Source: Caldicellulosiruptor acetigenus
GTDB taxonomy: Bacteria; Bacillota; Thermoanaerobacteria; Caldicellulosiruptorales; Caldicellulosiruptoraceae
DNA: 64,000 nt
Reading direction: 5' to 3'
Assembly (NCBI RefSeq): GCF_026914305.1
Contig: NZ_CP113866.1
Span: 2,049,501-2,113,500 of the forward strand
In this document: positions 37,401 to 58,443 of the stretch, one piece after another
Layout of the letters: each line of letters starts with the position of its first letter
Position numbering within the stretch: position 1 is the stretch's first letter
Translations under genes and position numbers: made by a program
The notes under the pieces: generated by a model
Database searches by the model: none
Seen by the model: only the letters and a program-made list of their open reading frames with translations
Told to the model about the DNA's origin: nothing

Positions 37401-37891
37401 TTCGAAAGAATGTCCGCTTTCTTTGCAAGCTTTACAACGATTGTATTAAGACCATCAAGAAAAGCTGTCATTTTTGGAGTTTTCTGAGGTTGAGATGTAT
37501 AGATTTGCTCTTCACCTTCTATCAGCCAAACCTCTTTTGACCCGTTGATTCCTGAGATGAATCTGTCAACAGCAACATCTTTCGCTTCCCAGTTACCTTT
37601 TCTAACTATGATACCTACTTTTGTTATTTTCCCAGGAAGTTCAACCACTGCTTTTACTCCAAAGTCATCTTTAGATGTAAACTCATAAGCTTTGCCTTCT
37701 GCACCAACTGGTTCAACAGGCCATATCCACAAATTCCAACCTTGATAGTCTTCATTGTACCTGTAGTAGTGAATGATGAGAGTTGTTTTTTCATCTGCCC
37801 CTAAAATAGAAATTGGAAAAATAAGAGTAGCAATAAATAAGAATGTCAACAAACCAGCTATAAAACGTTTGCTTTTGAAATAACTTAGCAT
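34481..37891 (-). CDS. Secreted type I pullulanase with CBM41 and C-terminal starch-binding-like module
   Basis: 1136 residues. A signal peptide ([25 protein letters not shown]) is followed by a CBM41 (about 35-130), a linker/inserted beta domains (135-345), a CBM48-type module (about 375-460), and a GH13 barrel (about 490-900). YNWGYDP (567-573) marks type I pullulanases; nucleophile Asp 687 is in DGFRFDLM, acid/base Glu 716 in YGEGWMAG, and Asp 803 in AHDN. The tail (1025-1115; [23 protein letters not shown]...EYKYTRGSW) looks like a CBM20/X25-type starch-binding sandwich. I chose ATG 37891 (GGGAGG upstream) over an in-frame ATG at 38044. It debranches alpha-1,6 bonds of starch or pullulan. 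Confidence 0.93.
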
Positions 37892-37923
37892 CTTTCTTAC
37901 CTCCCAGCTAAATTTAATAAGGA

Positions 37924-37964
37924 TTTTAAACAATTCAACAAATAATATACTTGATTGTTCAAAA
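37924..37964 (-). repeat. Inverted repeat in the pullulanase leader
   Basis: Arms at 37924-37934 and 37954-37964 (TTTTGAACAAT and ATTGTTTAAAA on the minus strand) pair over 11 bp with one G-T wobble. The element lies in the roughly 108-base leader between the predicted transcription start and the ribosome-binding site, and could be an operator or leader hairpin. Confidence 0.5.
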
Positions 37965-38005
37965 CACCTTTTATCAATGCAAATGTTTGCTTTAACTTTG
38001 TAATG

Positions 38006-38034
38006 ATTATATATCTTTTTATTAAAATTGTCAA
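38006..38034 (-). promoter_or_regulatory. Consensus promoter of the pullulanase gene
   Basis: On the minus strand TTGACA (38034-38029) and TATAAT (38011-38006) are exactly 17 bases apart, a full match to the vegetative sigma factor consensus, giving a leader of about 108 bases. Confidence 0.85.
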
Positions 38035-38085
38035 TATGCTGCAATTTGAATAAATTAAGACCAATAATTTATAAAAAATAAATAA

Positions 38086-38151: not shown

Positions 38152-39738
38152 TTACTGATTTCTCTCCTTGAAGTACTGTTCAAGCTGTCTTAGCGCCTCA
38201 GCTTTAACCTTGTCAACACCTGCTGCTTTGAGCTTCTTGTCAAGTGTTGCAAAAGCTTCATCCACGTTCTTTACCATACCCAAACATATTGGATTGTAAT
38301 ACTGTGTCATAACACTGTTGAGGTTTGCAATCTCTGTTTTTACCTTTGTCTGGTCAAGTGAGAATGAAGAAAGTGGTGAGCTTACAAGTGCTTTCTTGAT
38401 TGTGTTCCTCAGAGCAATGTAATTGTCATCCCAGCTTGCAAGTGGTAAGAACTGATCCTTGTTTGTGAACCAGAACCCTGCTGCATCTGGAGGATAAGTG
38501 TTGTTGTCGGCTGTAACACCTTTTGGCAAGTCAATTTTGTTGTTTTTGATTATATAGTTCTTGCCCTGAATTCCAAAATAAACAAGATAGTTGTAAGACT
38601 TTTCTTCCATAATTATGTCAAGTGCCATAAGTGTTCTCTCTGCGTTCTTTGTCTTTGCTACCAACGCAACACCATTATTTATATATGGGTCTGCTGGTCT
38701 GTGGCCTCTCTTGTCAAAGATTGGGATAATTTCAACCTTCCATCCTTTTGCTTTTGCATTTGCAAGATTAGATTGTATATCTTGGCTGTTTCCAAACGCA
38801 ACTGCTGACTTCCCTTGGTCAAACGCGTCTTTGCTTCTTACTTTGTTAGCATAAGCGTTTCTGTTGATGTATCCTTTGTCATACCATGACTTTACCTTCT
38901 TTGCTGCCTCTTTGAAAGCAGGAAGTATCTCTTTGTCCATTATATAGTAAACTTTTGGTTTGGTGTCGTATATGGTTGTGAAAAGTCCTGTACCGCCTGT
39001 TGATACTCTTGCAACATCTTCTAAATAATCTGTTTTTTCAACCAAAAGTCTCCACATAACTGAGTTCAAATCATACTGGTTGTCCAAGTTCATTGGCATC
39101 ATGCCTTTTTCATTTTTCTTTATTGCAGCAAGGAACGGTTCAATATCATTGTATTTTTTAATTGGTGGAACTTTGTATTTTTCTCTCAAATCGCCTCTTA
39201 AAATCACAACGTCAGCTTTTCTATCAGGTGTTGCAGTAGGAATCATGTAGATTTTCCCTTTTACCTTTGCTTCCTGCCATGCAACAGAAGGTGTTGCCTT
39301 GTAGTGTCTTGGCATGTATTTTTTTATCATATCCATTGTAAGTTCCTTAAATCCACCTTTCGCAGCTTCCTGGAAGTAGAAGCACCAGTTTGCTGCGTAC
39401 ATCCAGTCAACATTTTCACCTGATGCCAAAATAAGTGGATATTTGTAGTTCAAATCTCCCCATCCAATGTAGTTAATCTCCATTGTTGCGTTGATGTCTT
39501 TTTGAAGCTTTTTGTTGAGCTCTTTCATAACGTTTGGAAATTCAGCCGGTGCATCACCCAAAAGATAACCAACAATCTTGACAGGTTTTGACACATCAAT
39601 GCTTGGGTCAAAACCGGGTGCAGTTCTTTTCGCCTTTGTTTGCGCACCAAAACCGACAACAAACATTGAAACTAAAACGGTTGAAAGTACAAAACATACT
39701 GTCAAGATGAGCGCTAAAAGCCTGAAGTTCTTTTTCAT
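38152..39738 (-). CDS. LplA-type oligosaccharide-binding protein (importer 1)
   Basis: 528 residues of the large LplA/YtcQ group of extracellular solute-binding proteins, which usually serve oligosaccharide importers. The signal sequence (FRLLALILTVCFVLSTVLVSMFVVGFGA) has a Cys only in mid-helix, not in lipobox position. Landmarks are KIVGYLLGDAPAEFPNVMKELN, MEINYIGWGDLNYKYPLILASGE, YWV-type GFWFTNKDQFLPLASWDDNY and a C-terminal YFKERNQ. ATG 39738 follows GGGAGG. It is the last gene of the permease operon, set off from it by a hairpin. The sugar is unknown. Confidence 0.9.
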   Translation of the reverse strand: MKKNFRLLALILTVCFVLSTVLVSMFVVGFGAQTKAKRTAPGFDPSIDVSKPVKIVGYLLGDAPAEFPNVMKELNKKLQKDINATMEINYIGWGDLNYKYPLILASGENVDWMYAANWCFYFQEAAKGGFKELTMDMIKKYMPRHYKATPSVAWQEAKVKGKIYMIPTATPDRKADVVILRGDLREKYKVPPIKKYNDIEPFLAAIKKNEKGMMPMNLDNQYDLNSVMWRLLVEKTDYLEDVARVSTGGTGLFTTIYDTKPKVYYIMDKEILPAFKEAAKKVKSWYDKGYINRNAYANKVRSKDAFDQGKSAVAFGNSQDIQSNLANAKAKGWKVEIIPIFDKRGHRPADPYINNGVALVAKTKNAERTLMALDIIMEEKSYNYLVYFGIQGKNYIIKNNKIDLPKGVTADNNTYPPDAAGFWFTNKDQFLPLASWDDNYIALRNTIKKALVSSPLSSFSLDQTKVKTEIANLNSVMTQYYNPICLGMVKNVDEAFATLDKKLKAAGVDKVKAEALRQLEQYFKERNQ

Positions 39739-39775
39739 CTCACAATCAACCTCCCTGATTCATTTTAATCTATAC

Positions 39776-39802
39776 CAACAGGCATTATAAAAAGTACCTG
39801 TT
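39776..39802 (-). repeat. Stem-loop between permease and binding-protein genes (importer 1)
   Basis: CAACAGG (39776-39782) and CCTGTTG (39797-39803) form the core of a stem of about 10 pairs with a wobble. It precedes the binding-protein ribosome site and follows the permease stop. Confidence 0.6.
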
Positions 39803-39813
39803 GATACCATTTT

Positions 39814-40692
39814 TTAGCCTTTTACAGCACCAAGTGTAATGCCTCTGACAAAATACCTTTGAACAAACGGGTACAAGAAAATTATTGGACCAGTTGCAAC
39901 AACTGTCATTGCAAGCTTTAAACTTTCTTTTGGCATATCTATTCGCACAACATTTTGCAGAATATTTGCCGCAACATTGACACTTGACAAAATCAAATAT
40001 AGAGTATACTGCAAAGGATACAAGCTCTGTCTTTCAATAAACATCATCGGCGTCCACCAGTCGTTCCAGTAATTGAGAGCTATAAAAAGTCCAATAGATG
40101 CCAAAGCTGGTTTTGAAAGTGGCAAAACAATTCTCAAGAATATTGTAAAATCTCCTGCGCCGTCAATCTTTGCTGACTCTATCAAAGAGTCTGGAATAGA
40201 ACCTCTGATAAAGTTGCGCAAGATTAAAATGTAAAACACATTGAAAAGTGGCACAAGTATCAGAACAAGCACGTTGTTTTTCAAATGATAGTAATTTGCC
40301 AAGATTATATAGTACGGAGCAAGACCACCGTTAAAAAGTGTTGTGAAGTACAAGAAGAAAGCCAATGCATTTCTGTATTTTACATCTTTTCTGTACATCA
40401 CATACGCAGCCATTGTGGAAAGAAATAACGATAAACTTGTGCCAACGCTTGTTACTACAATGGTTACCAAGTAAGCTCTGAAAATTCTTTGAGGATTTTG
40501 GAAAATGAGCTTATATGCACTGAGTGAAAATTCTCGTGGAATTAGAGTGTAACCGTGGTTTATGATATAGTTTTCTGAAGCAAACGAACTTACCACAAGC
40601 ACAACAAAAGGTATGAAGGTAAATAGCCCGATTATTGTTATAAATATATATCCGATAATGTTAAAGAGGATATAATCCTTACCCTTTCTCAA
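39814..40692 (-). CDS. LplC/YtcP-type ABC permease (importer 1)
   Basis: 292 residues, six predicted helices, CUT1 family. The EAA loop is ESAKIDGAGDFTIFLRIVLPLSKPALASIG; ALNYWNDWWTPMMFI and the C-terminal YFVRGITLGAVKG are typical of the LplC group. The start is TTG 40692 with GGGGAGAG about 8 bases upstream. It is 26 bases after the LplB-type permease gene. Confidence 0.9.
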   Translation of the reverse strand: MRKGKDYILFNIIGYIFITIIGLFTFIPFVVLVVSSFASENYIINHGYTLIPREFSLSAYKLIFQNPQRIFRAYLVTIVVTSVGTSLSLFLSTMAAYVMYRKDVKYRNALAFFLYFTTLFNGGLAPYYIILANYYHLKNNVLVLILVPLFNVFYILILRNFIRGSIPDSLIESAKIDGAGDFTIFLRIVLPLSKPALASIGLFIALNYWNDWWTPMMFIERQSLYPLQYTLYLILSSVNVAANILQNVVRIDMPKESLKLAMTVVATGPIIFLYPFVQRYFVRGITLGAVKG

Positions 40693-40718
40693 TGTTCTCT
40701 CCCCTTTTAAGTCAAGAT

Positions 40719-41639
40719 TTAAAACAGTGCATAGTCTTTGTCATATCTTCTGACAAGCCAGTTGACAAGCATTATAATCACAAAGCACAGCACCGACTGG
40801 TAAGCACCTGCTGCTGACGCCATCCCAATATCCTGAACCTGCATAAGGCTTCTGAACACAAGGGTATCGATAATGTCTGTATAGTCAAGAAGAAGACCGT
40901 TATTACCTATTATCTGATAAAACATATCAAACTCGCCGCGCAAAATTCTTCCAAGTGCAAGCAAAATCAATATTATCATTGTCGGTTTTAACATCGGGAT
41001 TGTGATATAAAAGATTCTCTGGAAGATATTTGCACCATCAATTATTGCTGCCTCATAACACTCTTCGTCAAATCCCATTATAGCTGCAAGATATAAAACA
41101 CTTCCGTAACCTACCCATTTCCATACATATAACATTGGCAAAAGGAAATACCAGTAAGTAGGATTTGAGTAGATATCTATTGGCTCACCACCAAGGTTTT
41201 TTATCAATGTGTTAATAAGACCATAATCATAGTTAAAAAAGTTATACATCATAGCTGCTACAACAACCCATGATACAAAATACGGCAAAAACATAACTGA
41301 CTGGATGAACTTTTTAAATATCTTACCTGCAAGCTCGGCTATAAAAATTGCGCACGCAACTGAAAATACTGTGTATGCAGCCAAAAAAGCTAAATTGTAA
41401 AGAATAGTGTTTTTTGTGACAAGCCAAGCTCTGCCCGAAGCAAAGAAATACTCAAAGTTTTTAAAGCCGTTCCATGGACTGAAAAGTATTCCATCTCGAT
41501 AGTTGAACTCTTTAAAAGCAAGAACAATTCCACCCATCGGTATGTAGGCAAATAGAATGTAGTAGATTGCTACTGGTAAGAACATGGCATAAAGTACCTT
41601 GTTCTTTTTTATTTCATACCAAAAACCATTCTTTTTCAA
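40719..41639 (-). CDS. LplB-type ABC permease (importer 1)
   Basis: About 306 residues. The N-terminal helix reads YAMFLPVAIYYILFAYIPMGGIVLAFKEF, followed by the LplB hallmark SPWNGFKNFEYFFASG and the EAA loop YEAAIIDGANIFQRIFYITIPMLKPT; it ends YDKDYALF. The start is taken as TTG 41639 with AAAAGGAG 8 bases upstream, rather than ATG 41675. First gene of its operon; a -10 box without a -35 suggests activation, plausibly by the neighbouring YesN-type regulator. Confidence 0.88.
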   Translation of the reverse strand: MKKNGFWYEIKKNKVLYAMFLPVAIYYILFAYIPMGGIVLAFKEFNYRDGILFSPWNGFKNFEYFFASGRAWLVTKNTILYNLAFLAAYTVFSVACAIFIAELAGKIFKKFIQSVMFLPYFVSWVVVAAMMYNFFNYDYGLINTLIKNLGGEPIDIYSNPTYWYFLLPMLYVWKWVGYGSVLYLAAIMGFDEECYEAAIIDGANIFQRIFYITIPMLKPTMIILILLALGRILRGEFDMFYQIIGNNGLLLDYTDIIDTLVFRSLMQVQDIGMASAAGAYQSVLCFVIIMLVNWLVRRYDKDYALF

Positions 41640-41699
41640 TTCAGCCACTCCTTTTGTAGTGATTGAACAAATCATTTATTCTCGCTTCTTCTATTTCTT

Positions 41700-41705
41700 A
41701 TTATA
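41700..41705 (-). promoter_or_regulatory. Candidate -10 box of importer 1 operon
   Basis: TATAAT is read on the minus strand at 41705-41700, about 60 bases upstream of the LplB-type start, with no recognisable -35 hexamer. This is as expected for an activator-dependent promoter. Confidence 0.4.
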
Positions 41706-41785
41706 AAAGGTCAGTTAAAAATTCATATCAGACAAAATTAATATTTTCTTTGTAAAATTAAGATAATAAAAATTGCAAAAAAATA

Positions 41786-41811
41786 GAAGCTGGCCTTTCA
41801 AAACCAGCCTC
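41786..41811 (-). terminator. Terminator after the first sensor kinase gene
   Basis: Arms GAAGCTGG (41786-41793) and CCAGCCTC (41804-41811), with one G-T pair, are followed on the minus strand by TATTTTTTTG. It separates the two-component genes from importer 1. Confidence 0.75.
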
Positions 41812-41860
41812 CGCATTTTTTGAGTATTGAAAGGATAAAAATTTAACTACTGTTTTATCA

Positions 41861-43645
41861 CTATTCTTCCACAGGAAACAGAACTTTTGCAACTGTTTTC
41901 TCGTTTATTTTGCTCTCATAAAACAGTCCAGCTTCATTTCCAAAATAGATTTTTAATCTCTCGTTTATATTTTTTATACCAAAACCATGTCCTCTTGTAG
42001 TCTCAACCTCTCCCTTCTTTATCTTTTCAAGAACTTCTTCGCAGATTCCAACGCCATCATCAATAACATATATCGCAGCCATTTTGTCATCTATTATTTC
42101 GCCTTTTATGATTATAGTACCTTTCTGCTCATCTTTTTCCAAAATCCCATGGTGAATAGAATTTTCAACAAGCGGCTGAAGAGTCAGTTTTGGTATCCGC
42201 GCTTGTAGAAGTTTTTGTGGAACATCTATCTTAAGGTCAATGCAATTGTCAAACCTGTAATTTTGAATCATCACATACGCCTTCACATGTTCTATCTCAT
42301 TTTCCACTGTTACAACGTCTTCACCCTTGCTAAGACTCAATTTATAAAACTGAGAAAGAGAGGTTACAAGCCTTGAAATATCTTCATTTTTGTTTTTAAT
42401 TGCAATCCAGTTTATAAGGTCAAGGGTGTTGTACAGAAAATGAGGATTTATCTGTGATTGAAGAGCTTTGAGCTCCAAATTTTTCTTCTCCTTGCCAAGC
42501 TGGTACTGCTGATACAAAAGCTCTTTTATTTTTTTTAACATATAGTTAAAGGTATATATGAGCTGACCCACCTCATCTTGAGAGTGAGAGTCCAATTCTA
42601 TATTAAAATCACCTTTTTCAATAACCTTCTTCATATTATGAGTAAGCCTTTTAATTCTTGATGTACTTGATGTTGCTGCCCAGAAAGCAAATATCAATGT
42701 AAAAGGTGTAATCAAGAATATCATGAAAAAGACCTGTTTGATGGTTTTTATATTAAGCTCATGAATCTCTTTGTAAGGTGTAACCAGTACAAGATACCAA
42801 TCTGTATCACTAATACTCTTTGTGCGAACAAGAAGTTTCTCACCCCCTACCTCTATCTCAACAACATTTGCCTCTTGATATAATATATTCTTTTCTATCC
42901 CTTTTATCATCTCTCCAAGGGATAAGTTTGTCTTATTTAAAGAACGTGCAACCACTTCACCATTTGAATTGACAATAAAAGCAAGTGTTCTGCTTGTAAA
43001 CAAAGCCTGATTTAGAATTCTTTCAATTTCAGCAATCGAAATATCAGCTCTGAGCGCAGCTTTGTATTCACTAATATTCTTAGGGTCTGGAATCAGTCTT
43101 ATTAAAGACACAACATCTTTTCGTGCGATATTTAGCATTTTGGGAGTAACCCAAGCAAAAAGCTCTCCTTTTAAAACCATCTGGTGATACCATGGAAGCT
43201 TTTCAATCCGCTCAAAGAGAAAATAACTATCTGTTTCACTGAGCTTAGCCAATCCCTGTGTCATATAAATTGAGATGCTGAGTATGTCAAAATTCTGGCA
43301 TGTACTGTAAAAAAGCTTTGTAAATCTCTGAGAGTCTACAAGCCAGTTACCTATGTTTTCGTAGTAATAGTCATCAGGCCTGTTTACAAGCTCTTGCACG
43401 GTTGAATCAAGAGCTAAAATGTTCAGTACATTTTTGACTGATGACACCCTGTTTTCCAAGAAAGAAGCTGTCTGGTCCACAATCTTGCCAGAAGAATAAA
43501 TAGCCCGTTTTTCGACATCCCTTCCAACAATAACGTAGTTCATAAAAGAAAATATACCAAATGATATTAAAATCACAAACATATATGAAGCAAACAATTT
43601 GTATTTTATACTCATATTTGAAAAAGCGTTTACAATCCTCTTCAT
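41861..43645 (-). CDS. YesM-type sensor histidine kinase (importer 1)
   Basis: 594 residues. Helix at about 15-38, a large extracytoplasmic Cache-like sensor domain (about 40-300), a second helix (about 303-325), HAMP (about 326-380), and a His_kinase core with phospho-acceptor His in INPHFLYNTLDLINW (near residue 405), plus ATPase motifs LTLQPLVENSIHHG, DDGVGIC and GHGFGIKNINERL. This is the YesM/LytS class that senses extracellular sugars. It overlaps the regulator gene by 4 bases. Confidence 0.93.
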   Translation of the reverse strand: MKRIVNAFSNMSIKYKLFASYMFVILISFGIFSFMNYVIVGRDVEKRAIYSSGKIVDQTASFLENRVSSVKNVLNILALDSTVQELVNRPDDYYYENIGNWLVDSQRFTKLFYSTCQNFDILSISIYMTQGLAKLSETDSYFLFERIEKLPWYHQMVLKGELFAWVTPKMLNIARKDVVSLIRLIPDPKNISEYKAALRADISIAEIERILNQALFTSRTLAFIVNSNGEVVARSLNKTNLSLGEMIKGIEKNILYQEANVVEIEVGGEKLLVRTKSISDTDWYLVLVTPYKEIHELNIKTIKQVFFMIFLITPFTLIFAFWAATSSTSRIKRLTHNMKKVIEKGDFNIELDSHSQDEVGQLIYTFNYMLKKIKELLYQQYQLGKEKKNLELKALQSQINPHFLYNTLDLINWIAIKNKNEDISRLVTSLSQFYKLSLSKGEDVVTVENEIEHVKAYVMIQNYRFDNCIDLKIDVPQKLLQARIPKLTLQPLVENSIHHGILEKDEQKGTIIIKGEIIDDKMAAIYVIDDGVGICEEVLEKIKKGEVETTRGHGFGIKNINERLKIYFGNEAGLFYESKINEKTVAKVLFPVEE

Positions 43646-45204
43646 ACATAATACCTCTCTCTAAATTCAGATGGAGTCATTCCAACCTTCTTTTTGAACA
43701 GGGCTGAAAAATAATTCGGGTCTCCAAATCCAACTCTCTCTGCAATCTCATATAGCTTGATGCTATTATCTTTTAGAAGCTGCTTGGCTTTTTCAATTCT
43801 GACTTCAGTTATATAATCGTTGAGTGTCTTACCAGTTGCTTTTTTGAACATACTACACAAATAATTTGGACTGAAATAAAAATGGTTAGCTATCTTTTGA
43901 ACACTCAGGTGCTTGTCATAAAAGTTCTCCTCAATAAACCTCATTATCTGATATACCTTTCGATTTAAATTGCCACGTGTTGTAAATAACTCAAATATTC
44001 CATCAAGAGTTTCATAAATAACCTCTTTTAGCTGGTTTAAAGTAAGCTTTTGTTCTATTTCGCGCCATTTTTTTGCTCTCCCAGCTTCATCTAAAAGCTG
44101 TGTTATTTTTCTTTGTCTTCCTACTTGGTATGCAATTAAGAGCATCTCAAAAAATATATTTTTTACCTTTTCAATATCAATGCCTTGGTTTGACTTAAGC
44201 CAAAAATATAGCTTCTCTATCTCCTCTTTGGCCTTTTTTATATCATCCCTTTTTAGATATTCCTCAAATTTTTCAAAGTCAAAATTAATCTCCTGTTCAT
44301 TTCTCTCAACAACATTCTCATATGTATATAAACTGCCAAACCCATTATAGAATATATTCTTTTTGAGTATTCTGAGCATATTTTCAACGCTGTGTTTTAC
44401 CTGAGTTGCCTTAATTGAAGTTGCAACTATTGCCGAAATCTCTCCTTTTTGTGAAAAAACTTCTCTGAGTATATCTGCTGCCCTGTTTATCTCAACATCA
44501 TTTTTTTTACTGCAAACAAAAACAAAACTATTCTGTGACAAAAACGAAAATAGCAGAGTAAACTTAGAATCAAAATCTTTAGTCATAAATTGGTTATATA
44601 TTTCTTTTGACACCATCTCATTTAAATGGTCCTCTTCACCCTTCCAATCGACAAGTCCTACTATAATATCTAATGTCGATGTTAAAAAATCTTCAGCAGT
44701 ATACTTTTTGAAAATGCTATAATCGGGCTGATCCTTTAGAAGCTGTTGAACAAGCTGGTAAGCAGCGTAATATATACTCTCATTGTAATGTTCTTTCAGT
44801 CTCTCTCTTTCTTCCTCCTCTTTTCTTTCAAACTCTATAATCTCCACAACTTTTTTCATTGTGCTCTTAATCTTTTCTATATCGAGAGGTTTTTCAATGT
44901 AGTCAATTGCATTCAAACGGATGGCTGACAAAAGATACTCCTTTTCTGCATAGCCACTTATAAAGACTATTTTGCATTTTGGAAAAATGCTTTTTAACCT
45001 CTTTGAAAACTCTATACCATCCATCCGTGGCATTCTTACATCGCACAGCAGAATGTCGGGAATATAATTTTTTACAATCTCCAAGGCTTCCTGCCCATTT
45101 TTGGCACTCTTAATTTCCCCAATTCCAAATTCATTCCATGGTATCAATGTTTCAAGACTTTCTCGTGTTATCTTCTCATCTTCTACAATTAGAAGCTTAA
45201 ACAT
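43642..45204 (-). CDS. YesN-type response regulator, AraC DNA-binding domain (importer 1)
   Basis: 520 residues. An N-terminal receiver (about 1-120) with Asp 55 in LLCDVRMPRMDG and KPLDIEK is joined by a long, poorly conserved helical region (about 130-410) to a C-terminal AraC domain (about 420-518) with HLSVQKIANHFYFSPNYLCSMFKKATG and IAERVGFGDPNYFSALFKKKVGMTPSEFR. It is predicted to activate the importer operon directly downstream. ATG 45204 follows GGGAGG; gene order is regulator then kinase. Confidence 0.93.
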   Translation of the reverse strand: MFKLLIVEDEKITRESLETLIPWNEFGIGEIKSAKNGQEALEIVKNYIPDILLCDVRMPRMDGIEFSKRLKSIFPKCKIVFISGYAEKEYLLSAIRLNAIDYIEKPLDIEKIKSTMKKVVEIIEFERKEEEERERLKEHYNESIYYAAYQLVQQLLKDQPDYSIFKKYTAEDFLTSTLDIIVGLVDWKGEEDHLNEMVSKEIYNQFMTKDFDSKFTLLFSFLSQNSFVFVCSKKNDVEINRAADILREVFSQKGEISAIVATSIKATQVKHSVENMLRILKKNIFYNGFGSLYTYENVVERNEQEINFDFEKFEEYLKRDDIKKAKEEIEKLYFWLKSNQGIDIEKVKNIFFEMLLIAYQVGRQRKITQLLDEAGRAKKWREIEQKLTLNQLKEVIYETLDGIFELFTTRGNLNRKVYQIMRFIEENFYDKHLSVQKIANHFYFSPNYLCSMFKKATGKTLNDYITEVRIEKAKQLLKDNSIKLYEIAERVGFGDPNYFSALFKKKVGMTPSEFRERYYV

Positions 45205-49741: not shown

Positions 49742-51382
49742 TTATTCGCTTACTTTTTCGCCTTTTAGTTTTGCACCTTCTTTGTATTCAGAAGGGCTGT
49801 AGCCAGTGTAGCGTTTAAAAAGTCTTGAAAAGTAGTGCGGGTCTGGAATACCAACCCTGTCTGCAACCTCGTATGTTTTAAGGTCGGTTGTGAGCAAAAG
49901 CTGCTTTGCCTTTTCTATTCTATACTCATTTATAAAGTCGGAAAGGTTTTTTCCTGTCTCTTTCTTGAACAGTCTGCTCAAATATGAAGGACTTACAAAA
50001 AATTTTTCTGAAATATCGCTGAGGGAAATCTCGCCTGAGTGGTAGTTTTCTTTTATGTAATCTATCACCTTTTTTATTAAACTGCCCATTTTGTTTAGGT
50101 TGTGTTTTTGGACTTCTTCAATTGTACGCTGGATAGATATTCGCAAGATGTTGCTGAGTTCTGACAAACTTTTGCATTTTATAATCTCATTAAAATAATC
50201 AATACTTTCAAACATCTCTTGATTATCAGGTTTATTTATGGTCGAAGAAAGCTGAGCTTTTATCATATTTATTTCAATGAGCAGAAGATAGTAAAAATTG
50301 AAGATGTACTGTTTATCTGCTTTTGACTTTTTCAAGGTCTCTTCGAGCTCAAGCAAGAGATTATTTATATTTGAATAATTTCCGTATCTGACACTCAACA
50401 AAACTTCATTTTTCAGATTTTTCAACTTTCTGTCATCCACGTACATGAAAAAGTGAGAAAGGTCCTTGTAATATATGATATCCTCTTCGTCAAAATAAAA
50501 TCTGTAATTTATCGCATCTATGCACTCCTTATATTTGTCTGGAAGCTGCACAATGCCCCTGCCCCACGTACTTACTGCAAGTGTCAAATCAATATTAAAA
50601 CACTCCACTGCTGCTTTTTTTAGCTGGCTCAAAAGCTCAAAAAACCTCTTCTCTTCTTCTTTTTCAAGTTCTTTCTTTGAGCTTACAATATACACTGCCT
50701 GAGAGTTGTTTAAATAAATAGTATAAATGGTAAAATCGTTGCTCAAAAAGTCATTTAGCATATTTGATATTCCCAAAAGGTACAAATGAGTATTCTGTCT
50801 TCCTCTTTCTTCTTTTGTACTGCACTCGGCTAATATCATCAAGAAACTGCCAATCTCAATTTCATAAAACGTTGCCATTTGAAGTATTTCATCTTCATTT
50901 GAAATCATCTCAAATATGACATTGAACAAAAAATTCTCTCTTAAGATGGGAAGTTTTTCTTTCAAAATGCTATTTATCTTTTCCAGCTCCTCAACTATTG
51001 TCTTTTCTTTCTTTATCTCGTTTATGGCTTTTTGCACTACATTTATTATATCTTCAACCTTCGTTGGTTTTAGAAGAAAATCAAAAGCACCGTATTTTAT
51101 AGCTCTCTGGGCATACTCGAACTCCCTGTAAGCTGTCAAAATCACAATCTTGCACTGGGGAATAATCTTTTTAATCCTATCAATGAGTTCAATTCCGTCC
51201 ATATTGGGCATTTTGATGTCTGTAATGACAATGTCAGGTTTTACCTCCTCGATTACCTTTAAAGCCTCATCTCCACTTGAAGCTTCAGCGCAAATTTCAC
51301 ACTCTAAATCTTTCCATCTTATAACATTTCTAATTCCTTTTCGAATAAGCATGTCATCGTCAACTATTACAATCTTATACAT
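49742..51382 (-). CDS. YesN-type response regulator, AraC DNA-binding domain (three-component system)
   Basis: 546 residues. The receiver has Asp 55 in IVITDIKMPNMDG and KPTKVEDI; a long central helical region follows; the C terminus is an AraC domain (about 435-540) with EISLSDISEKFFVSPSYLSRLFKKETG and VADRVGIPDPHYFSRLFKRYTGYSPSEYK. It is the last gene of the run, overlapping the kinase gene by 8 bases. The likely target is the LplABC operon upstream in the same cluster. Confidence 0.93.
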   Translation of the reverse strand: MYKIVIVDDDMLIRKGIRNVIRWKDLECEICAEASSGDEALKVIEEVKPDIVITDIKMPNMDGIELIDRIKKIIPQCKIVILTAYREFEYAQRAIKYGAFDFLLKPTKVEDIINVVQKAINEIKKEKTIVEELEKINSILKEKLPILRENFLFNVIFEMISNEDEILQMATFYEIEIGSFLMILAECSTKEERGRQNTHLYLLGISNMLNDFLSNDFTIYTIYLNNSQAVYIVSSKKELEKEEEKRFFELLSQLKKAAVECFNIDLTLAVSTWGRGIVQLPDKYKECIDAINYRFYFDEEDIIYYKDLSHFFMYVDDRKLKNLKNEVLLSVRYGNYSNINNLLLELEETLKKSKADKQYIFNFYYLLLIEINMIKAQLSSTINKPDNQEMFESIDYFNEIIKCKSLSELSNILRISIQRTIEEVQKHNLNKMGSLIKKVIDYIKENYHSGEISLSDISEKFFVSPSYLSRLFKKETGKNLSDFINEYRIEKAKQLLLTTDLKTYEVADRVGIPDPHYFSRLFKRYTGYSPSEYKEGAKLKGEKVSE

Positions 51383-53246
51383 CTTCCTCTTCCCCTTCGC
51401 CAGAAAATTCCTGTAAGCTTTCCTCTACCGCTCTGCTGAGCGCATCCAACAGAATTTCAATCTTTATAGTAGTGCCTCTCTGTGGCAGGCTTTCAATTGA
51501 AAAGCTTGCATCTCTGCCATAGATGAGCTTTAGTCTCTTTACCACATTTACAAGCCCTATTCTTGTATAGGACCTTTCCTCCTGTTCAAGGAAGACCTCA
51601 TTGTCACCTTCTAAATCTTGACGTATCCCCTTTAATTTTTCAGGTGGTATTCCCACACCATCATCTTTTACAATTATGGCAAGCTTATCGTTCCAAATAT
51701 AACCACCCACAAATATCTTGCCAAAACCTTTTGGGCGTATGCCGTGAAAGATAGAATTTTCTACAAGAGGTTGTATTAGCAGTTTAGGAATTCTAAGTTT
51801 TAAAGCTTTTCTGTCCACATCCACTTCAAGTTTTAAATTGTCTTCACCAAAGTTTATCTTCAAAATTGAAACATATGAGGTTATATATTTTATTTCTTCC
51901 TCTAAGGTTAAAAACTTCTCTTCTTTTAGATTCACCTCTAAAAGCTTTGAAAGCGCAATGACAACATCGCTTATTTGGGATACGCCATTTAGCTGTGCAA
52001 GCCAGTTAATCGATTCCAAAATATTAAACAAAAAATGGGGATTTAGCTGGGTTTGCAAAACTTTTAGTTCTGCCTCTTTTCGTGTTATCTGTTCCTTGTA
52101 AATTGAATTTATCAGATGATTTATTTTTACCACCATATTGTTAAAGTTATCAATAAGAATACCAAGTTCATCTTTTCTGTCAAGATTTTCTATTGTCTTG
52201 TATTCTCCTTTTCTAATTCTTTTTGTTGCTTCCACGATAGCATTAATTGGTTTTAAAAAGTCCATTGAAAGCATCAGCGACATTGCTGACGTTATCACAA
52301 ACGACAAAAAACACAAAACTATAAGCCACATCCTGAGTTTATCTATATCTCTGAACAATACTTTAACCGGGATAGAAGTCACTATGTACCAGTCTACTTG
52401 TTTTATTGGCAGAATATTGACAATGTATTCGTTAGAAGTATATGTAACAACACCGTTTTTATTTTTCACTTGAGACATAAACTTGAGGATTTTTTCTTCA
52501 TTCATCTCGCCCTTTGTTGAAATAAATATGTTATCTCCCACTACCGCAATTGCCTGACTTTTTTCTGCAACAAGTTCGGAAAATGTCTTGTCAAAAAGCT
52601 CTGTGTTTATCATAACAGCTAAAATTCCTTCAAACTTTAATGTCTGTGGATTATTTATGCACCTTGTTATCAAGACTGCCACTTTGCTGTCTTTGTCTCT
52701 TTTCAGTAAAGCTACACACCAAACAGGTTTCCCGTTTCCTTTTGCAGCAATGTCATACACTTTTTCTAAAGAGATTTGAGATGGTATTATCTCGTCAAGT
52801 CCTACTTCCTTTGAAGTGTTATCAACTATACACAGCTTTTTCTCTTTTGTGAATACCCCTATTGATTGCACATCAAGATGCCCTAAGATTATTTTTCGAA
52901 ACTTGTTTGTAAGTGAAGCAACATCATCGTAGTAATCCACATTTTTCATTGATTTGTCCAAAACATTGTATAGTTCTGTTTGATACAAAATATCCTGAGT
53001 TATGCTATTTATCTCATTTATCTTGTCAACAATTCGCAGCCTTGCTGTTTTTATAACATCAGAGGTGTAGCCCACATATTTTTTGAATATCAAATCTGAC
53101 GAAATTCTAAAGCTTATAACCCCAATGAGGATTATTGGAATAAATATTTGAATGTATGAAACTGCTAAAAATTTTTTGTCTATGGAAATGGTACGATAAT
53201 ATTTTATTAAGTTCCTAAAAATCATCTTTATTTTGAACATTCTCAT
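51375..53246 (-). CDS. YesM-type sensor histidine kinase (three-component system)
   Basis: 623 residues. N-terminal helix (about 28-45), large extracytoplasmic Cache-like domain (about 50-300), second helix (about 305-330), HAMP with LDRKDELGILIDNFNNMV, and a kinase core with phospho-acceptor His in LNPHFLFNILESINW (near 420), LLIQPLVENSIFHG and DDGVGIPPEKL. Its ATG overlaps the stop of the sugar-binding-protein gene by 4 bases, so the kinase is translated together with that protein and is probably its partner. Confidence 0.93.
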   Translation of the reverse strand: MRMFKIKMIFRNLIKYYRTISIDKKFLAVSYIQIFIPIILIGVISFRISSDLIFKKYVGYTSDVIKTARLRIVDKINEINSITQDILYQTELYNVLDKSMKNVDYYDDVASLTNKFRKIILGHLDVQSIGVFTKEKKLCIVDNTSKEVGLDEIIPSQISLEKVYDIAAKGNGKPVWCVALLKRDKDSKVAVLITRCINNPQTLKFEGILAVMINTELFDKTFSELVAEKSQAIAVVGDNIFISTKGEMNEEKILKFMSQVKNKNGVVTYTSNEYIVNILPIKQVDWYIVTSIPVKVLFRDIDKLRMWLIVLCFLSFVITSAMSLMLSMDFLKPINAIVEATKRIRKGEYKTIENLDRKDELGILIDNFNNMVVKINHLINSIYKEQITRKEAELKVLQTQLNPHFLFNILESINWLAQLNGVSQISDVVIALSKLLEVNLKEEKFLTLEEEIKYITSYVSILKINFGEDNLKLEVDVDRKALKLRIPKLLIQPLVENSIFHGIRPKGFGKIFVGGYIWNDKLAIIVKDDGVGIPPEKLKGIRQDLEGDNEVFLEQEERSYTRIGLVNVVKRLKLIYGRDASFSIESLPQRGTTIKIEILLDALSRAVEESLQEFSGEGEEEDV

Positions 53247-54583
53247 TCACCCAATTTTTCCATATTCTCTTCCCACGCTTTGATTGCTCTTTCCCAAAAT
53301 AACTTTGAAGAAATTGTGCCCTGTAGATAATAAGGAATATTTTTAGTTATAACCTCTTCCCAAACCATTCTGTCAACAAAATGGTCAGGCGGTGCAACAA
53401 GCACATCGGCTTCTTTTATAAGCCCTTCCACTTTTGAACGCAGAGGATTTTTGACATTGGGCGGGTTTTCTATTTTCACATTTGAAATTAGTCCCGTTCT
53501 TTCAACAAATATTCTTGCAACCTTTTCGGAGGTCAAAAATTTTAAAAGTTTTATCGCCCAGCTTCTCTTTGTTCTATCTTGCCAGGCTTGACTGCTGACA
53601 TAAAATGTCCCGCCACCAAGACCGTAAATCAAATGCTTTTTCCCTGTATTGTTTACCTGAGGGAAAAAATATATGTCAACTGTCTGTGGGTCACACTTTG
53701 GAATGAACCATGAACCCTGGACAATCATTGCTGCCTTCTTTGTCAAAAACAAATCATTTCGTTGTTTGCTGGTAAGTGAATAGTAGTTTGCTGGAAAGGC
53801 ACCTGCCTTGTAAAGAGCTTTTAAATAGTCAAGAGCTTTTATGTAAGGTGATGAAAATTCACCGCTCTTGAGCGGATTTTCTACATCATGCTTTGTTCCT
53901 ATCGAAACAATAATGTTCTGGTATATGTATGTCCCCTCTGGCTGGGCATTGAAAGCAATTGGAATAATTCCTTTGCTCTTCAGTATTTTTGAAACATTTA
54001 TCAGCTCATCAAATGTCTGAGGAACTTTTAGATTGTACTTCTCAAAAATATCCTTGTTGACAAAAAGGCACTCAACTATTGTTTCAAGCGGAACACCATA
54101 AATTTTCCCATTGAAAGTCACATACTTCCACATGTTAGTATAAAAACTTTGATACCACTTTACATCTTTTTTAAACACATCTGTTAAATCAGCTATTTGG
54201 TGTCTTTGGATTAGGATGTCTCGAACAGAACCTGGAAAAAGACCAAAAACATCTGGAGGGTTGCCAGATGCAAAGTCTGTCTGAAGTTTTATCAAAAAAT
54301 CATCACCAAACAGAGATTCATTGACAATGGTTATGCCGGCATTTTCTTCTTGAAACTTTTGAAGTACAAACGAGAGTGTGTCGGCATAAGGGTCACTTCC
54401 ACCCCACGGGCTTAAAAATCTTATCTTTGTGGTGATCTCTGTTTCTTCATTTTCAATAGTTACACTTTCTTCCACTGTTTTCTGTGTATTTAATATGAGT
54501 ACAATTACGAGTGCAAGAGTAGTTATAAGAGGTATAAAGAAACTTACTGACAGTATGTGCCTCTTATTAAATGAATCTTTCAT
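53243..54583 (-). CDS. Membrane-anchored sugar-binding protein of a three-component sensor
   Basis: About 446 residues of the extracellular solute-binding family 1. A hydrophobic helix near residues 12-30 (VSFFIPLITTLALVIVLIL) has no lipobox Cys and no clear cleavage site, so it looks like an uncleaved anchor. Binding-fold landmarks are IRFLSPWGGSDPYADTL, PPDVFGLFPGSV, IYGVPLETIVECLFVNKDIF and MIVQGSWFIPKC. No permease gene belongs to it, and its gene overlaps the kinase gene, so a role as ligand-sensing partner of the kinase is more likely than transport. Start ATG 54583 is preferred to GTG 54592. Confidence 0.85.
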   Translation of the reverse strand: MKDSFNKRHILSVSFFIPLITTLALVIVLILNTQKTVEESVTIENEETEITTKIRFLSPWGGSDPYADTLSFVLQKFQEENAGITIVNESLFGDDFLIKLQTDFASGNPPDVFGLFPGSVRDILIQRHQIADLTDVFKKDVKWYQSFYTNMWKYVTFNGKIYGVPLETIVECLFVNKDIFEKYNLKVPQTFDELINVSKILKSKGIIPIAFNAQPEGTYIYQNIIVSIGTKHDVENPLKSGEFSSPYIKALDYLKALYKAGAFPANYYSLTSKQRNDLFLTKKAAMIVQGSWFIPKCDPQTVDIYFFPQVNNTGKKHLIYGLGGGTFYVSSQAWQDRTKRSWAIKLLKFLTSEKVARIFVERTGLISNVKIENPPNVKNPLRSKVEGLIKEADVLVAPPDHFVDRMVWEEVITKNIPYYLQGTISSKLFWERAIKAWEENMEKLGE

Positions 54584-54631
54584 AAAAATCACAACCCTGA
54601 ATTTTTTGAAGTATAAACGTTTTTACTTTTA

Positions 54632-54654
54632 TTTTATCTTATATTGAGATAAAA
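54632..54654 (-). promoter_or_regulatory. Candidate promoter with inverted repeat before the three-component genes
   Basis: An 8-bp inverted repeat (TTTTATCT at 54632-54639, AGATAAAA at 54647-54654) lies within a region with a possible -35 TTGTGA and -10 TAAAAT on the minus strand. It would let the sensor genes be expressed independently of the importer operon. Confidence 0.4.
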
Positions 54655-54688
54655 TCACAATCTATTTCTTTTCAAATATTAGCAACAA

Positions 54689-54727
54689 ACGGGATACCAG
54701 TGCATAAATCTTGCACCAGTATCCCGT
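54689..54727 (-). terminator. Hairpin between importer 2 and the three-component genes
   Basis: Arms ACGGGATAC (54689-54697) and GTATCCCGT (54719-54727) extend inward with two mismatches to about 16 pairs. It is 19 bases past the binding-protein stop, with a modest T-rich tail on the minus strand. Confidence 0.7.
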
Positions 54728-54745
54728 CTGTAATTTTTCTTTTAA

Positions 54746-56248
54746 TTATTTCTTTCTTCCTGTTTTCTTAAGGAACTCATCATACTGCTTCTGTGCTTCT
54801 TTTATAATAATGTCAACACCTGCTTTTTTGAACTTGTCAATAGCCTCTGGAATGTATCTGTCTGGATCAACACTGCCGGTCTCAAGCAGCGGAATATACT
54901 GCTTCCATACGTTTTTGCATGCTGCAACCTGTGTTTTTACTTTTGAATCATCAAAGTTGAATCCAAGGCTCAGAAGCGGCAGTGCTTTTTTGTTATACTC
55001 TTCAAAGTTCTTCCACTTGTTCGGGTCTTCATTCTCATAGATATAGTTTATAAACTGATTTCCAAACATCCAGCCAAGACCAGGGCTGTAGTCTTTTGCT
55101 TTTGGTCCAGGAGCAATGATGCCTTTTGCCTTGTCTTTAAATACATAGTGTTGACCTTCAATACCGAAGTTTACAAGGTTGTTAAGATATTTGTCTGTGT
55201 TGAAAAGCTCAAGGAACATCAAAGCTCTTTCTGGATTCTTGGACTTTGCATTGATGGCCTGCATAGAACCAATAGCTTCTCTTGTTGACATAACAGGTGG
55301 TGTGATGTCTATCTGTTTCCACTGATACCCTGTTGAGATTGACATCTCAGCATCTTTGCCAGGCTTTAGCGATTGTGGCATTACAAAAACTTTACCTGCT
55401 TTCAAATCAGACATCCAGTCTGTTACACTTGCTGCATCTTTTCTGATGTAACCAGCCAAGTAATATTTTCTGACTGTCTTAAAGAGAGCTTTTGTATTTG
55501 GTTGCTCAAGCTCATTGACAATTTTTGTACTCTTATTATTTGGATAGAGCGAAACAGGAACATCATCGTCTACAACTTTGTCCCAATCCAAAAGGAATCT
55601 TGGCGACTCACCAGCATATGCTCCAAGCGGATATACACCTGGCTCTTTTTGTTTGATTATTTTGAGGTATGGCTCTAAATCTTCTAATTTCTTGACCTTT
55701 TTAAACATGTCATCTAATTTATACTTCTTTACCAAGTCCATTCTTACGATGAATCCCCAGTGGTGTGCTTTTTCCTTGTTTGCTGGAATCGCATATAAGA
55801 TGCCATTGATGGACGCACCTCTTATAAAGTCATCGCCAAGCATCTTTTTTGTCTTTGGTGCATACTTTGAAAGAAGGTCATTTCCTGGTTTGTTGAGTGG
55901 TAAGAACGCTCCTTTTGCCACGTTTGTTCTATAGTTGTTTGTCCAGATTGCAGTAAAACAGATGTCAAACGGCTCACCAGCTGCAATCTTTGTCTGCATC
56001 TTGTCATTGTACTCGCCCCAGTCAAACATTGTCATTTTGATTTCAGCATTGAGCTTTGGTTTGATGTACTCATTAACCTTTTGATTGATTAAATCCCAGT
56101 CTTTTTGTGGAGTTCCGATGACATACCATGTAAGCTTAACGTAAGGAAGTTTTGAAGAAGATGCACCAAAACCGGTCACAACGCCAATCACACTTGTGAG
56201 CACAAAAGCCACAACAAGCATCACTACAAAAAATTTCTTCAGCTTCAC
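54746..56248 (-). CDS. LplA-type oligosaccharide-binding protein (importer 2)
   Basis: About 500 residues; signal sequence KFFVVMLVVAFVLTSVIGVVTGFGA without a lipobox Cys. Landmarks are LTWYVIGTPQKDWDLIN, IKMTMFDWGEYNDKMQTKIAAGEPFDICFTA, FVMPQSLKPGKDAE and a Lys-rich C terminus (YDEFLKKTGRKK). GTG 56248 is preferred to TTG 56251 and has GGGAGG about 10 bases upstream. It is set apart from the permease genes by a strong stem-loop. The sugar is unknown; the neighbouring GH5 gene suggests beta-glucan or mannan oligosaccharides. Confidence 0.9.
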   Translation of the reverse strand: MKLKKFFVVMLVVAFVLTSVIGVVTGFGASSSKLPYVKLTWYVIGTPQKDWDLINQKVNEYIKPKLNAEIKMTMFDWGEYNDKMQTKIAAGEPFDICFTAIWTNNYRTNVAKGAFLPLNKPGNDLLSKYAPKTKKMLGDDFIRGASINGILYAIPANKEKAHHWGFIVRMDLVKKYKLDDMFKKVKKLEDLEPYLKIIKQKEPGVYPLGAYAGESPRFLLDWDKVVDDDVPVSLYPNNKSTKIVNELEQPNTKALFKTVRKYYLAGYIRKDAASVTDWMSDLKAGKVFVMPQSLKPGKDAEMSISTGYQWKQIDITPPVMSTREAIGSMQAINAKSKNPERALMFLELFNTDKYLNNLVNFGIEGQHYVFKDKAKGIIAPGPKAKDYSPGLGWMFGNQFINYIYENEDPNKWKNFEEYNKKALPLLSLGFNFDDSKVKTQVAACKNVWKQYIPLLETGSVDPDRYIPEAIDKFKKAGVDIIIKEAQKQYDEFLKKTGRKK

Positions 56249-56282
56249 CAAAAATCAACCTCCCGCTTTTTATTTTTTTGTA

Positions 56283-56352: not shown

Positions 56353-57261
56353 TCAGCCTTTGATAGCACCGATGGTAAGACCTTTTACAAAATAACGCTG
56401 GAAGAACGGATAAGCTAAAACTATTGGTCCCATACCTAAAACTGCCATTGCCATTCGTGCAGATTCTGCTGGCAAATCTTTTAACGGACTCTCGCTTACA
56501 AGACTAATTTTTGAAGCTATCTCAGCCAAGTATTGAATCTTTTGTTGAACCCTGTACATTAGGTATTGAAGATTATATAATTTTTCACTTTCTACTAACA
56601 TAAAGGGCAGCCACCAGTCGTTCCAGTATGTGATTGCCGCAAAGAGAGCAATTGTTGCAAGTCCAGGCTTTACAAGCGGCACAACAATTCTGAAAAATGT
56701 TGTAAACTCCCCTGCACCGTCAATTTTTGCAGACTCTATGATAGAATCAGGTAAAGACATCGAAAGATACGTCCTAAAAATCAGTACATACCACATGTTC
56801 ATTACATAAGGTAAAATTAGTGCGTATATTGTATCTTTTAAGCGAAGAACATTTACGCACACAATATACCAGGGAACAAGCCCGGCATTGATTAGCATTG
56901 TGAAAAATCCAAAGAATGTGAAAAACTTTCTGTACTTGAAATCTTTTCTGAATAGGATATATGCGTACATAGAAACCACAAGCACACTTAGTATTGTCCC
57001 TACAATTGTCACAAAAATAGTTAAACCATATGCATGAACAATAGCTGCTCCTTGAGCCAATACAAACTCGTATGATTTTAAGCTCAATTTAACAGGCCAA
57101 AGTCTATACCCTATCTGTCTGATCTTATTGTCATCACTCAGAGAAATTGATATCACAGCCCAGAGTGGAACCAAACACGCAAGAGCAACTATACCAAAGA
57201 TGATATGCAAAATAATCTCTGATGCAGTAGATATCTGCAAAAACCTGCTCTTTGACTGCAT
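56353..57261 (-). CDS. LplC/YtcP-type ABC permease (importer 2)
   Basis: 302 residues, six helices. EAA loop ESAKIDGAGEFTTFFRIVVPLVKPGLATIA, segment AITYWNDWWLPFMLV, and C terminus YFVKGLTIGAIKG match the LplC group and closely resemble the importer 1 homologue. ATG 57261 follows AGGTGATG. It is 53 bases after the LplB-type gene. Confidence 0.9.
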   Translation of the reverse strand: MQSKSRFLQISTASEIILHIIFGIVALACLVPLWAVISISLSDDNKIRQIGYRLWPVKLSLKSYEFVLAQGAAIVHAYGLTIFVTIVGTILSVLVVSMYAYILFRKDFKYRKFFTFFGFFTMLINAGLVPWYIVCVNVLRLKDTIYALILPYVMNMWYVLIFRTYLSMSLPDSIIESAKIDGAGEFTTFFRIVVPLVKPGLATIALFAAITYWNDWWLPFMLVESEKLYNLQYLMYRVQQKIQYLAEIASKISLVSESPLKDLPAESARMAMAVLGMGPIVLAYPFFQRYFVKGLTIGAIKG

Positions 57262-57314: not shown

Positions 57315-58256
57315 TTAAAACAGCGCTTTTTCTGGGTCAAGTCTGCGAACGATGAGATTGGATGTGAGCACTAGAATAAATCCCATTATTGATTGATAAA
57401 AGCTTGCGGCAGATGCCATTCCTATATCGTTCATGCCCATGAGAGTCCTATAGACATATGTATCAATAACATTTGTTACATCAAAAAGAGCACCGCTGTT
57501 CATTGGAAGCTGATAAAAAAGTCCAAAGTCTGCATAAAAGATTCTGCCTATTCCAAGCAGAACAAGCACAACAACAAGTGGCGACAAAAGCGGAATTGTT
57601 ATGTGTCTTATCTGCTGCCATTTTGACGCACCATCAATCAAAGCTGCCTCATAATATTCAGGGTCAATTCCTGTAATTGCTGCTAAATATATGACTGCAT
57701 TGTAACCTGTATATTTCCACAGATTTGCAAGTATCAATATAACAGGCCAAGGTTTTGTCTCAAAATACCATGCAATTGGCTGCAAGCCCAGCTTCGGAAG
57801 AATCATTGTGTTGAGAATCCCCAAGTCTATACTTAAAAATGCAAATGCCATATAAGCAACAACAACCCATGACAAAAAGTATGGTAAAAACATTACTGAC
57901 TGGTAAAACTTTGCCATAAATCTTGCTCTCATTTCACTCAGTGCAATGGCCGTTGCAATTGCCGCCAAGTTCCCAAAGACTATAAATGCAAAGTTGTAAA
58001 GAAGGGTGTTCCTTGTGATAATAAACGCATCAGGTGTTTTGAAAAGAAACTCAAAATTCTTAAAACCCACCCACGGACTTTTCAGTATACCCAAATCATA
58101 GTGCACATCTTTGAAAGCAATGATAAGTCCAAACAGAGGTAAGTAAGAAAATGCTATCAAAAGAACAACCCCCGGCAGTGCCATTAAAAACAGAGGAAAG
58201 TTCTTGTTAAGTTCTCTCAAAAATCCGCTTCGATATGTGCGCTGACCGTTTGCCAT
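57315..58256 (-). CDS. LplB-type ABC permease (importer 2)
   Basis: 313 residues from ATG 58256, which has AAAGGAG upstream; a TTG at 58280 is an alternative start. Landmarks are LFLMALPGVVLLIAFSYLPLFGLIIAFKDV, SPWVGFKNFEFLF, the EAA loop YEAALIDGASKWQQIRHITIPLLSP and C-terminal LDPEKALF. First gene of the importer 2 operon. A pair of 15-base direct repeats lies just upstream. Confidence 0.9.
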   Translation of the reverse strand: MANGQRTYRSGFLRELNKNFPLFLMALPGVVLLIAFSYLPLFGLIIAFKDVHYDLGILKSPWVGFKNFEFLFKTPDAFIITRNTLLYNFAFIVFGNLAAIATAIALSEMRARFMAKFYQSVMFLPYFLSWVVVAYMAFAFLSIDLGILNTMILPKLGLQPIAWYFETKPWPVILILANLWKYTGYNAVIYLAAITGIDPEYYEAALIDGASKWQQIRHITIPLLSPLVVVLVLLGIGRIFYADFGLFYQLPMNSGALFDVTNVIDTYVYRTLMGMNDIGMASAASFYQSIMGFILVLTSNLIVRRLDPEKALF

Positions 58257-58288
58257 TTTTGATGCCGTCTCCTTTCTCAAGTTGTTTA

Positions 58289-58324
58289 TTGAAACTTTCG
58301 ATTTACTTGTTGAACTTTTCGATT
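58289..58324 (-). promoter_or_regulatory. Pair of direct repeats, 21-bp period, upstream of importer 2
   Basis: TTGAAACTTTCGATT (58289-58303) and TTGAACTTTTCGATT (58310-58324) match at 13 of 15 positions and repeat every 21 bases, two helical turns. This is the layout expected of an AraC-type regulator site. It overlaps the -10 box TATAAT (minus strand 58327-58322; possible -35 TTGAAA about 16 bases further up). Confidence 0.6.
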
Positions 58325-58443
58325 ATAGTTTACATCCTATTTTTTTCAAAATGAATTGATAAAATTGCAGTTTTTTTGTGAATTGTTGATATTAAAATGT
58401 GCAATATTTTGTCATATTGAATGGTCAAAATAATATAAAAATA

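Follow-up and report, generated by a model that had tools for sequence, protein, structure and literature searches.

The avi gene trio of Caldicellulosiruptor acetigenus probably encodes a three-component cellobiose sensor orthologous to CuaDSR

Genes for a solute-binding protein, a histidine kinase and a response regulator lie together at the avi locus of Caldicellulosiruptor acetigenus. The window analyzed was a stretch of 64,000 nucleotides from the 2.74 Mb genome, which is a single contig. In this window, aviD lies directly upstream of aviS and aviR on the same strand (Table 1), and the three genes encode proteins of 446 (from ATG), 623 and 546 amino acids. Pfam domains were SBP_bac_1 (SBP_bac_1/SBP_bac_8) in AviD, HAMP, His_kinase and HATPase_c in AviS, and Response_reg with an AraC-type HTH in AviR. 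The catalytic residues His404 of AviS, within an NPHFLFN motif, and Asp55 of AviR are intact. The gene order celD-permeases-SBP-SBP-kinase-regulator (SBP, solute-binding protein) is that known from the avi locus of C. bescii (Athe_0594 to Athe_0600 by position; celD, aviABCD, aviRS), and AviD, AviS and AviR are 89, 92 and 94% identical to the proteins of genome L083, which we take to be C. bescii. The same locus was present in 11 other genomes of the genus.

Table 1 Features of the avi locus, with positions in the window
Feature	Position	Strand	Basis
aviD, solute-binding protein (SBP_bac_1), predicted cellobiose-specific sensor subunit	53243..54583	(-)	Pfam, orthology to Athe_0598 (PMC12838199)
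aviS, YesM-type histidine kinase: predicted dCache-fold sensor between two membrane helices, HAMP, His404, HATPase	51375..53246	(-)	
aviR, YesN-type response regulator: receiver (Asp55) and AraC HTH	49742..51382	(-)	
aviC, transport SBP of LplABC-type importer (DUF3502); Athe_0597 orthologue by position	54746..56251	(-)	
Importer permease	56353..57261	(-)	
Importer permease, first gene of aviABC unit	57315..58280	(-)	
celD, GH5-CBM28-SLH cell-surface cellulase; predicted AviR co-target in C. bescii (PMC8579813)	58498..60783	(-)	
Hairpin between aviC and aviD, 20-bp stem; terminator or 3'-end element	54685..54731	(-)	-33 kcal/mol, z -8.8
Promoter-like TTGTGA-18-TAAAAT before trio	54631..54660	(-)	Consensus match only
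aviA promoter-like TTGAAA-16-TATAAT	58322..58349	(-)	
32-bp block ACAAAAAnACTGCAATTTTnTCAATTCATTTT directly upstream of aviA -35; candidate AviR site	58348..58379	(-)	Aligned in 12/12 genus genomes

The initial annotation had described these three genes, their overlaps of 4 bases (aviD/aviS) and 8 bases (aviS/aviR), and an upstream LplABC importer with its own binding protein. The coordinates match exactly, and the importer's binding protein is the DUF3502 SBP encoded by aviC, so that a separate transport SBP and two permeases lie near the trio, as they do near CuaDSR-type sensors. The same annotation regarded the trio as fused by its overlaps, a description that did not hold up. Spacing was +2 and +17 in three genomes of the genus and ranged from -112 to +142 in distant loci, where start calls are automatic. 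Since the overlaps are ordinary and are not conserved, the genes should not be called fused, and we rejected the overlaps as meaningful in themselves because their lengths vary among relatives.

A hairpin separates the importer from the trio and has been kept across the genus with compensatory changes, four pairs being altered on both sides. Given this conserved element and the promoter-like site that follows it, the trio is probably transcribed separately, and probably at a lower level. The cuaDSR genes of Ruminiclostridium cellulolyticum have likewise been described as a separate operon (PMC10384115). In C. bescii, aviABC and celD are predicted targets of AviRS, and growth on cellulose, cellobiose and xylan raised the expression of both 10-15-fold (PMC8579813). 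The response of aviABC to xylan, and also to xylose, counts against reading the trio as a cellobiose sensor. In the window, a position matrix made from the block at the aviA promoter gave no clear further match ahead of celD, and only in two C. saccharolyticus-like genomes did it give a modest second match near celD. This counts against co-regulation of celD by AviR, the case for which thus comes from the literature.

AviD is the orthologue of Athe_0598 (89% identity), and all 14 of the published cellobiose-contact residues of that protein are identical in AviD, at the same residue numbers. The nearest AviD paralogue in the same genome keeps seven of the 14. Among 38 distant AviD homologues, the contact sites match AviD at a mean of 73%, compared to a background of 44%. 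In vitro, Athe_0598 binds only cellobiose (G2), and not G3-G5 or glucose (Tjo et al., PMC12838199). Its Kd for cellobiose was 2.84 uM at 25 C, some 50 degrees cooler than the growth temperature and with a stoichiometry of n = 2.1, compared to 0.23 uM for the transport SBP Athe_0597, which binds G2-G5 (PMC12838199). Judged from these contact residues, and from binding measured for the orthologue (PMC12838199), AviD is predicted to be specific for cellobiose.

The AviD structure model (pLDDT 94) is that of a standard family-1 SBP. AviD has no Cys near its N-terminal helix, which bears out an earlier remark that it has no lipobox, and no obvious AxA cleavage site, and it is therefore predicted to be anchored through an uncleaved N-terminal helix. 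The missing lipobox is nothing special here: this genome encodes Lgt and LspA, yet only two of its 14 inspected transport-type SBPs have a lipobox. What stands out in AviD is the missing cleavage site. Most transport SBPs of this genome have no lipobox and carry apparently cleavable signals (L089-L098; window 38152-39738 and 54746-56251). Among AviD-type SBPs, 30 carry a lipobox at the N-terminus and 25 a Cys-less hydrophobic helix, with no third type, and the SBP tree calls for four or more switches of anchor type. All AviD-type SBPs are thus predicted to be membrane-anchored, by lipid or by an N-terminal helix.

The region of AviS between the membrane helices was characterized from an AlphaFold model, because sequence searches gave only weak dCache matches. 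Pfam returned no Cache match for the AviS sensor, a PDB sequence search with AviS matched the cytoplasmic domain only, and a sensor profile gave just weak dCache matches. The model (residues 26-338, mean pLDDT 87) matched dCache sensors of kinases and chemoreceptors in Foldseek. The extracytoplasmic domain is thus predicted to have a dCache fold between two membrane helices, in line with the Cache-like sensor proposed at the outset.

The closest described system is that of R. cellulolyticum, in which CuaD, CuaS and CuaR form a three-component cellobiose system, as determined by genetics and two-hybrid assays (Fosses et al., PMC10384115). In the two-hybrid assay CuaS is bound by CuaD and not by CuaA, the transport SBP. 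No affinity for cellobiose could be measured for the sensor domain of CuaS on its own, and growth was restored better by cuaDSR than by cuaSR (PMC10384115). Some induction remained with CuaSR in the absence of CuaD (PMC10384115), which counts against the need for a CuaD-type SBP. Our identification of this locus in the R. cellulolyticum genome is secure, because the kinase (627 amino acids), the regulator (538 amino acids) and the mature SBP following the lipobox (410 amino acids) all have the published lengths (PMC10384115). The avi proteins matched those of this locus one-to-one and over near full length, with identities of 43% for AviD/CuaD, 34% for AviS/CuaS and 37% for AviR/CuaR, and AviD had no match to CuaA at E<=1e-3. 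From these matches and the SBP tree, the trio is orthologous to CuaDSR gene by gene.

Pairing of the SBP with the kinase was constant across relatives. A kinase gene followed the gene for the AviD-type SBP on the same strand in all 12 genomes of the genus and in all 37 distant loci with downstream DNA; in three of the distant loci there is a small ORF in between or the SBP gene is split. One split gene is that of Cellulosilyticum ruminicola (L033:158-1509), where the sensor SBP gene is divided into two ORFs and the kinase, regulator and importer are intact. In the opposite direction, a profile of the AviS sensor domain run against 291 genomes recovered 14 kinases above a gap from 297 to 135 bits, and in 14/14 the AviD-type SBP was encoded immediately upstream; some genomes are common to this set and the 37 distant loci. 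The initial annotation had paired a binding protein lacking permeases of its own with the kinase. The arrangement of the trio was conserved in every genome examined across Clostridia, and homologues were not invariably accompanied by permeases of their own.

The importer next to the trio was less constant. Most relatives have an LplABC-type importer there, but the R. cellulolyticum/papyrosolvens group and L005 carry MalEFG-like CuaABC genes, with a GH94 phosphorylase gene after them. The LplABC SBP was not found in G041 and G045, two searched genomes with a CuaABC-type importer. The SBP tree requires at least two changes between LplABC and MalEFG/CuaABC importers, through which the trio was retained. 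If an SBP belonged to a single permease, it would not be expected to outlast the replacement of that permease, so importer replacement favors the kinase as partner. The constant SBP-kinase pairing, the replacement of the importer and the unfailing presence of one or other predicted anchor on the SBP all point to the kinase rather than a permease as the conserved partner of AviD, contrary to its listing in AviABCD. Directly downstream of the trio in R. hungatei (L022:12938-13830) are two short ORFs with matches to CuaA-type transport SBPs. They look like fragments of a second, decayed importer, and the same contig carries a gene for an LplABC-type SBP some 15 kb further along.

Taken together, AviD-AviS-AviR is most likely a three-component cellobiose sensor orthologous to CuaDSR that would activate aviABC and celD, with AviC as the importer's own SBP, and it very probably switches on the neighboring cellulose-sugar importer. 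In the mechanism we propose, AviD would be held on the outer membrane face by its uncleaved N-terminal helix and would bind cellobiose, as its orthologue Athe_0598 does in vitro. The loaded protein would then act on the dCache sensor of the AviS dimer, as suggested by the two-hybrid result for CuaD and CuaS, and AviS would autophosphorylate at His404 and pass the phosphate to Asp55 of AviR, as its intact motifs and those of AviR suggest. AviR may then activate the promoter of the aviABC importer, where the promoter block is conserved, together with celD, consistent with the published prediction and expression data. AviC rather than AviD would serve as the binding protein of the importer. The core of the initial annotation, in which the kinase receives the sugar from the SBP and the importer is controlled by the regulator, is supported by the orthology to CuaDSR and the co-occurrence of SBP and kinase, and it further agrees with the replacement of the importer around an unchanged trio and with the dCache fold predicted for AviS. 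We also think it reasonably probable that AviD/CuaD-type proteins are pure sensor subunits of a portable module kept through Clostridia, whose importer gave way to an unrelated one at least twice and whose SBP tether changed four or more times between lipid and protein helix.

A dual role, in which AviD delivers cellobiose to AviAB and also signals via AviS, would have precedents in the single SBPs of citrate and chitin systems (cited in PMC10384115) and would fit the position of aviD beside the importer throughout the genus. It is nevertheless very unlikely, because the locus has separate genes for two SBPs, like the cua system with its divided sensing and uptake, and conservation tracks the kinase and not the permease. 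We consider it equally improbable that AviD is simply a second substrate-binding subunit of AviAB, feeding cellobiose to the permeases while AviS senses the sugar directly. Published assignments take this form, with the name AviABCD and a "transporter with two SBPs" (PMC8579813, PMC12838199), and the partial response of CuaSR alone to cellobiose would be in keeping with direct sensing. However, the SBP stayed with the kinase while the importer type was replaced, close homologues of the kinase were not found without an AviD-type SBP in the 291 genomes, AviC already binds G2-G5, a hairpin lies between aviC and aviD, and the sensor domain of CuaS has no measurable cellobiose affinity. A chance neighborhood of overlapping but functionally unrelated genes is scarcely credible, for although short overlaps are common and other kinase/regulator pairs here also overlap by 4 bases, the trio has kept its layout in all the clostridial genomes examined.

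The reading of AviD-AviS-AviR as a sensor differs from the C. bescii literature, in which AviD is listed as a transporter subunit (PMC8579813, PMC12838199). The 2025 study did not mention the kinase and regulator; it brought up regulation only through a comparison with CuaD, which the affinity order led its authors to question (PMC12838199). This order does count against AviD as a sensor, since Athe_0598, unlike CuaD, has a lower affinity for cellobiose than the transport SBP has. Three-component cellobiose sensing was already known in another bacterium, and the avi trio would be the counterpart of CuaDSR. The new elements are the comparative argument, in which the importer is replaced around a constant sensor trio as a natural experiment on the true partner of the SBP, and the correction of the AviD assignment. 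In a major biomass-degrading thermophile, AviD would thus be reassigned from a transporter of cellulose sugars to the sensor that switches this transporter on. The sole A. bescii mutant lacks the two permeases together with the two SBPs; we predict that deleting aviD alone would act through expression rather than uptake. The trio also offers thermostable parts for structural study of SBP-to-kinase signaling.

Two more SBP-kinase-regulator trios were found in this genome (L091:7537-8511 and L091:16650-17627, both (-); G000:C1 165.5-166.5 and 174.6-175.6 kb). Both have Peripla_BP_4 (CUT2-type) SBPs with Cys-less N-terminal helices, and in each case a separate CUT2 SBP with a stronger score is encoded nearby, a layout like that of XylFII-LytS. 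When CUT2-type SBPs of this genome were used as PDB queries, XylFII was not among the matches, and one query gave mostly short low-complexity matches. Together with the avi trio, this means that a dedicated SBP seems to accompany three of the genome's 14 YesM-type kinases. Importer 1 (38152-45204) has a regulator, a kinase, two permeases and one SBP; as noted initially, it has no partner SBP, and no second one was found in 38.1-45.2 kb. A large pullulanase gene follows (34481-38044), which suggests an alpha-glucan substrate.

The avi trio shares features with known systems to differing degrees. In the XylFII-LytS xylose sensor of Clostridium beijerinckii, an SBP acts via the sensor domain of a YesM/LytS-type kinase and a separate SBP serves transport. 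XylFII is a CUT2-type (Peripla_BP) protein, whereas AviD belongs to SBP_bac_1/SBP_bac_8, a different SBP family, so CuaDSR replaces the XylFII-LytS precedent invoked at first as the best one. The C. bescii avi locus is the same arrangement in a close relative. CuaDSR has the gene order of the avi trio, a cellobiose-specific SBP, a separate transport SBP and an adjacent importer. However, CuaD is a lipoprotein, in contrast to AviD with its Cys-less N-terminal helix. The cua system has a MalEFG-like CuaABC importer with cbpA, and the avi locus an LplABC-like AviABC with celD. The reported affinity order of sensor and transport SBP is also reversed, CuaD having an affinity of 20 nM. The lipoprotein anchor is not truly defining for the CuaDSR type, as the anchor varies among orthologues and a predicted anchor of one kind or the other is common to all.
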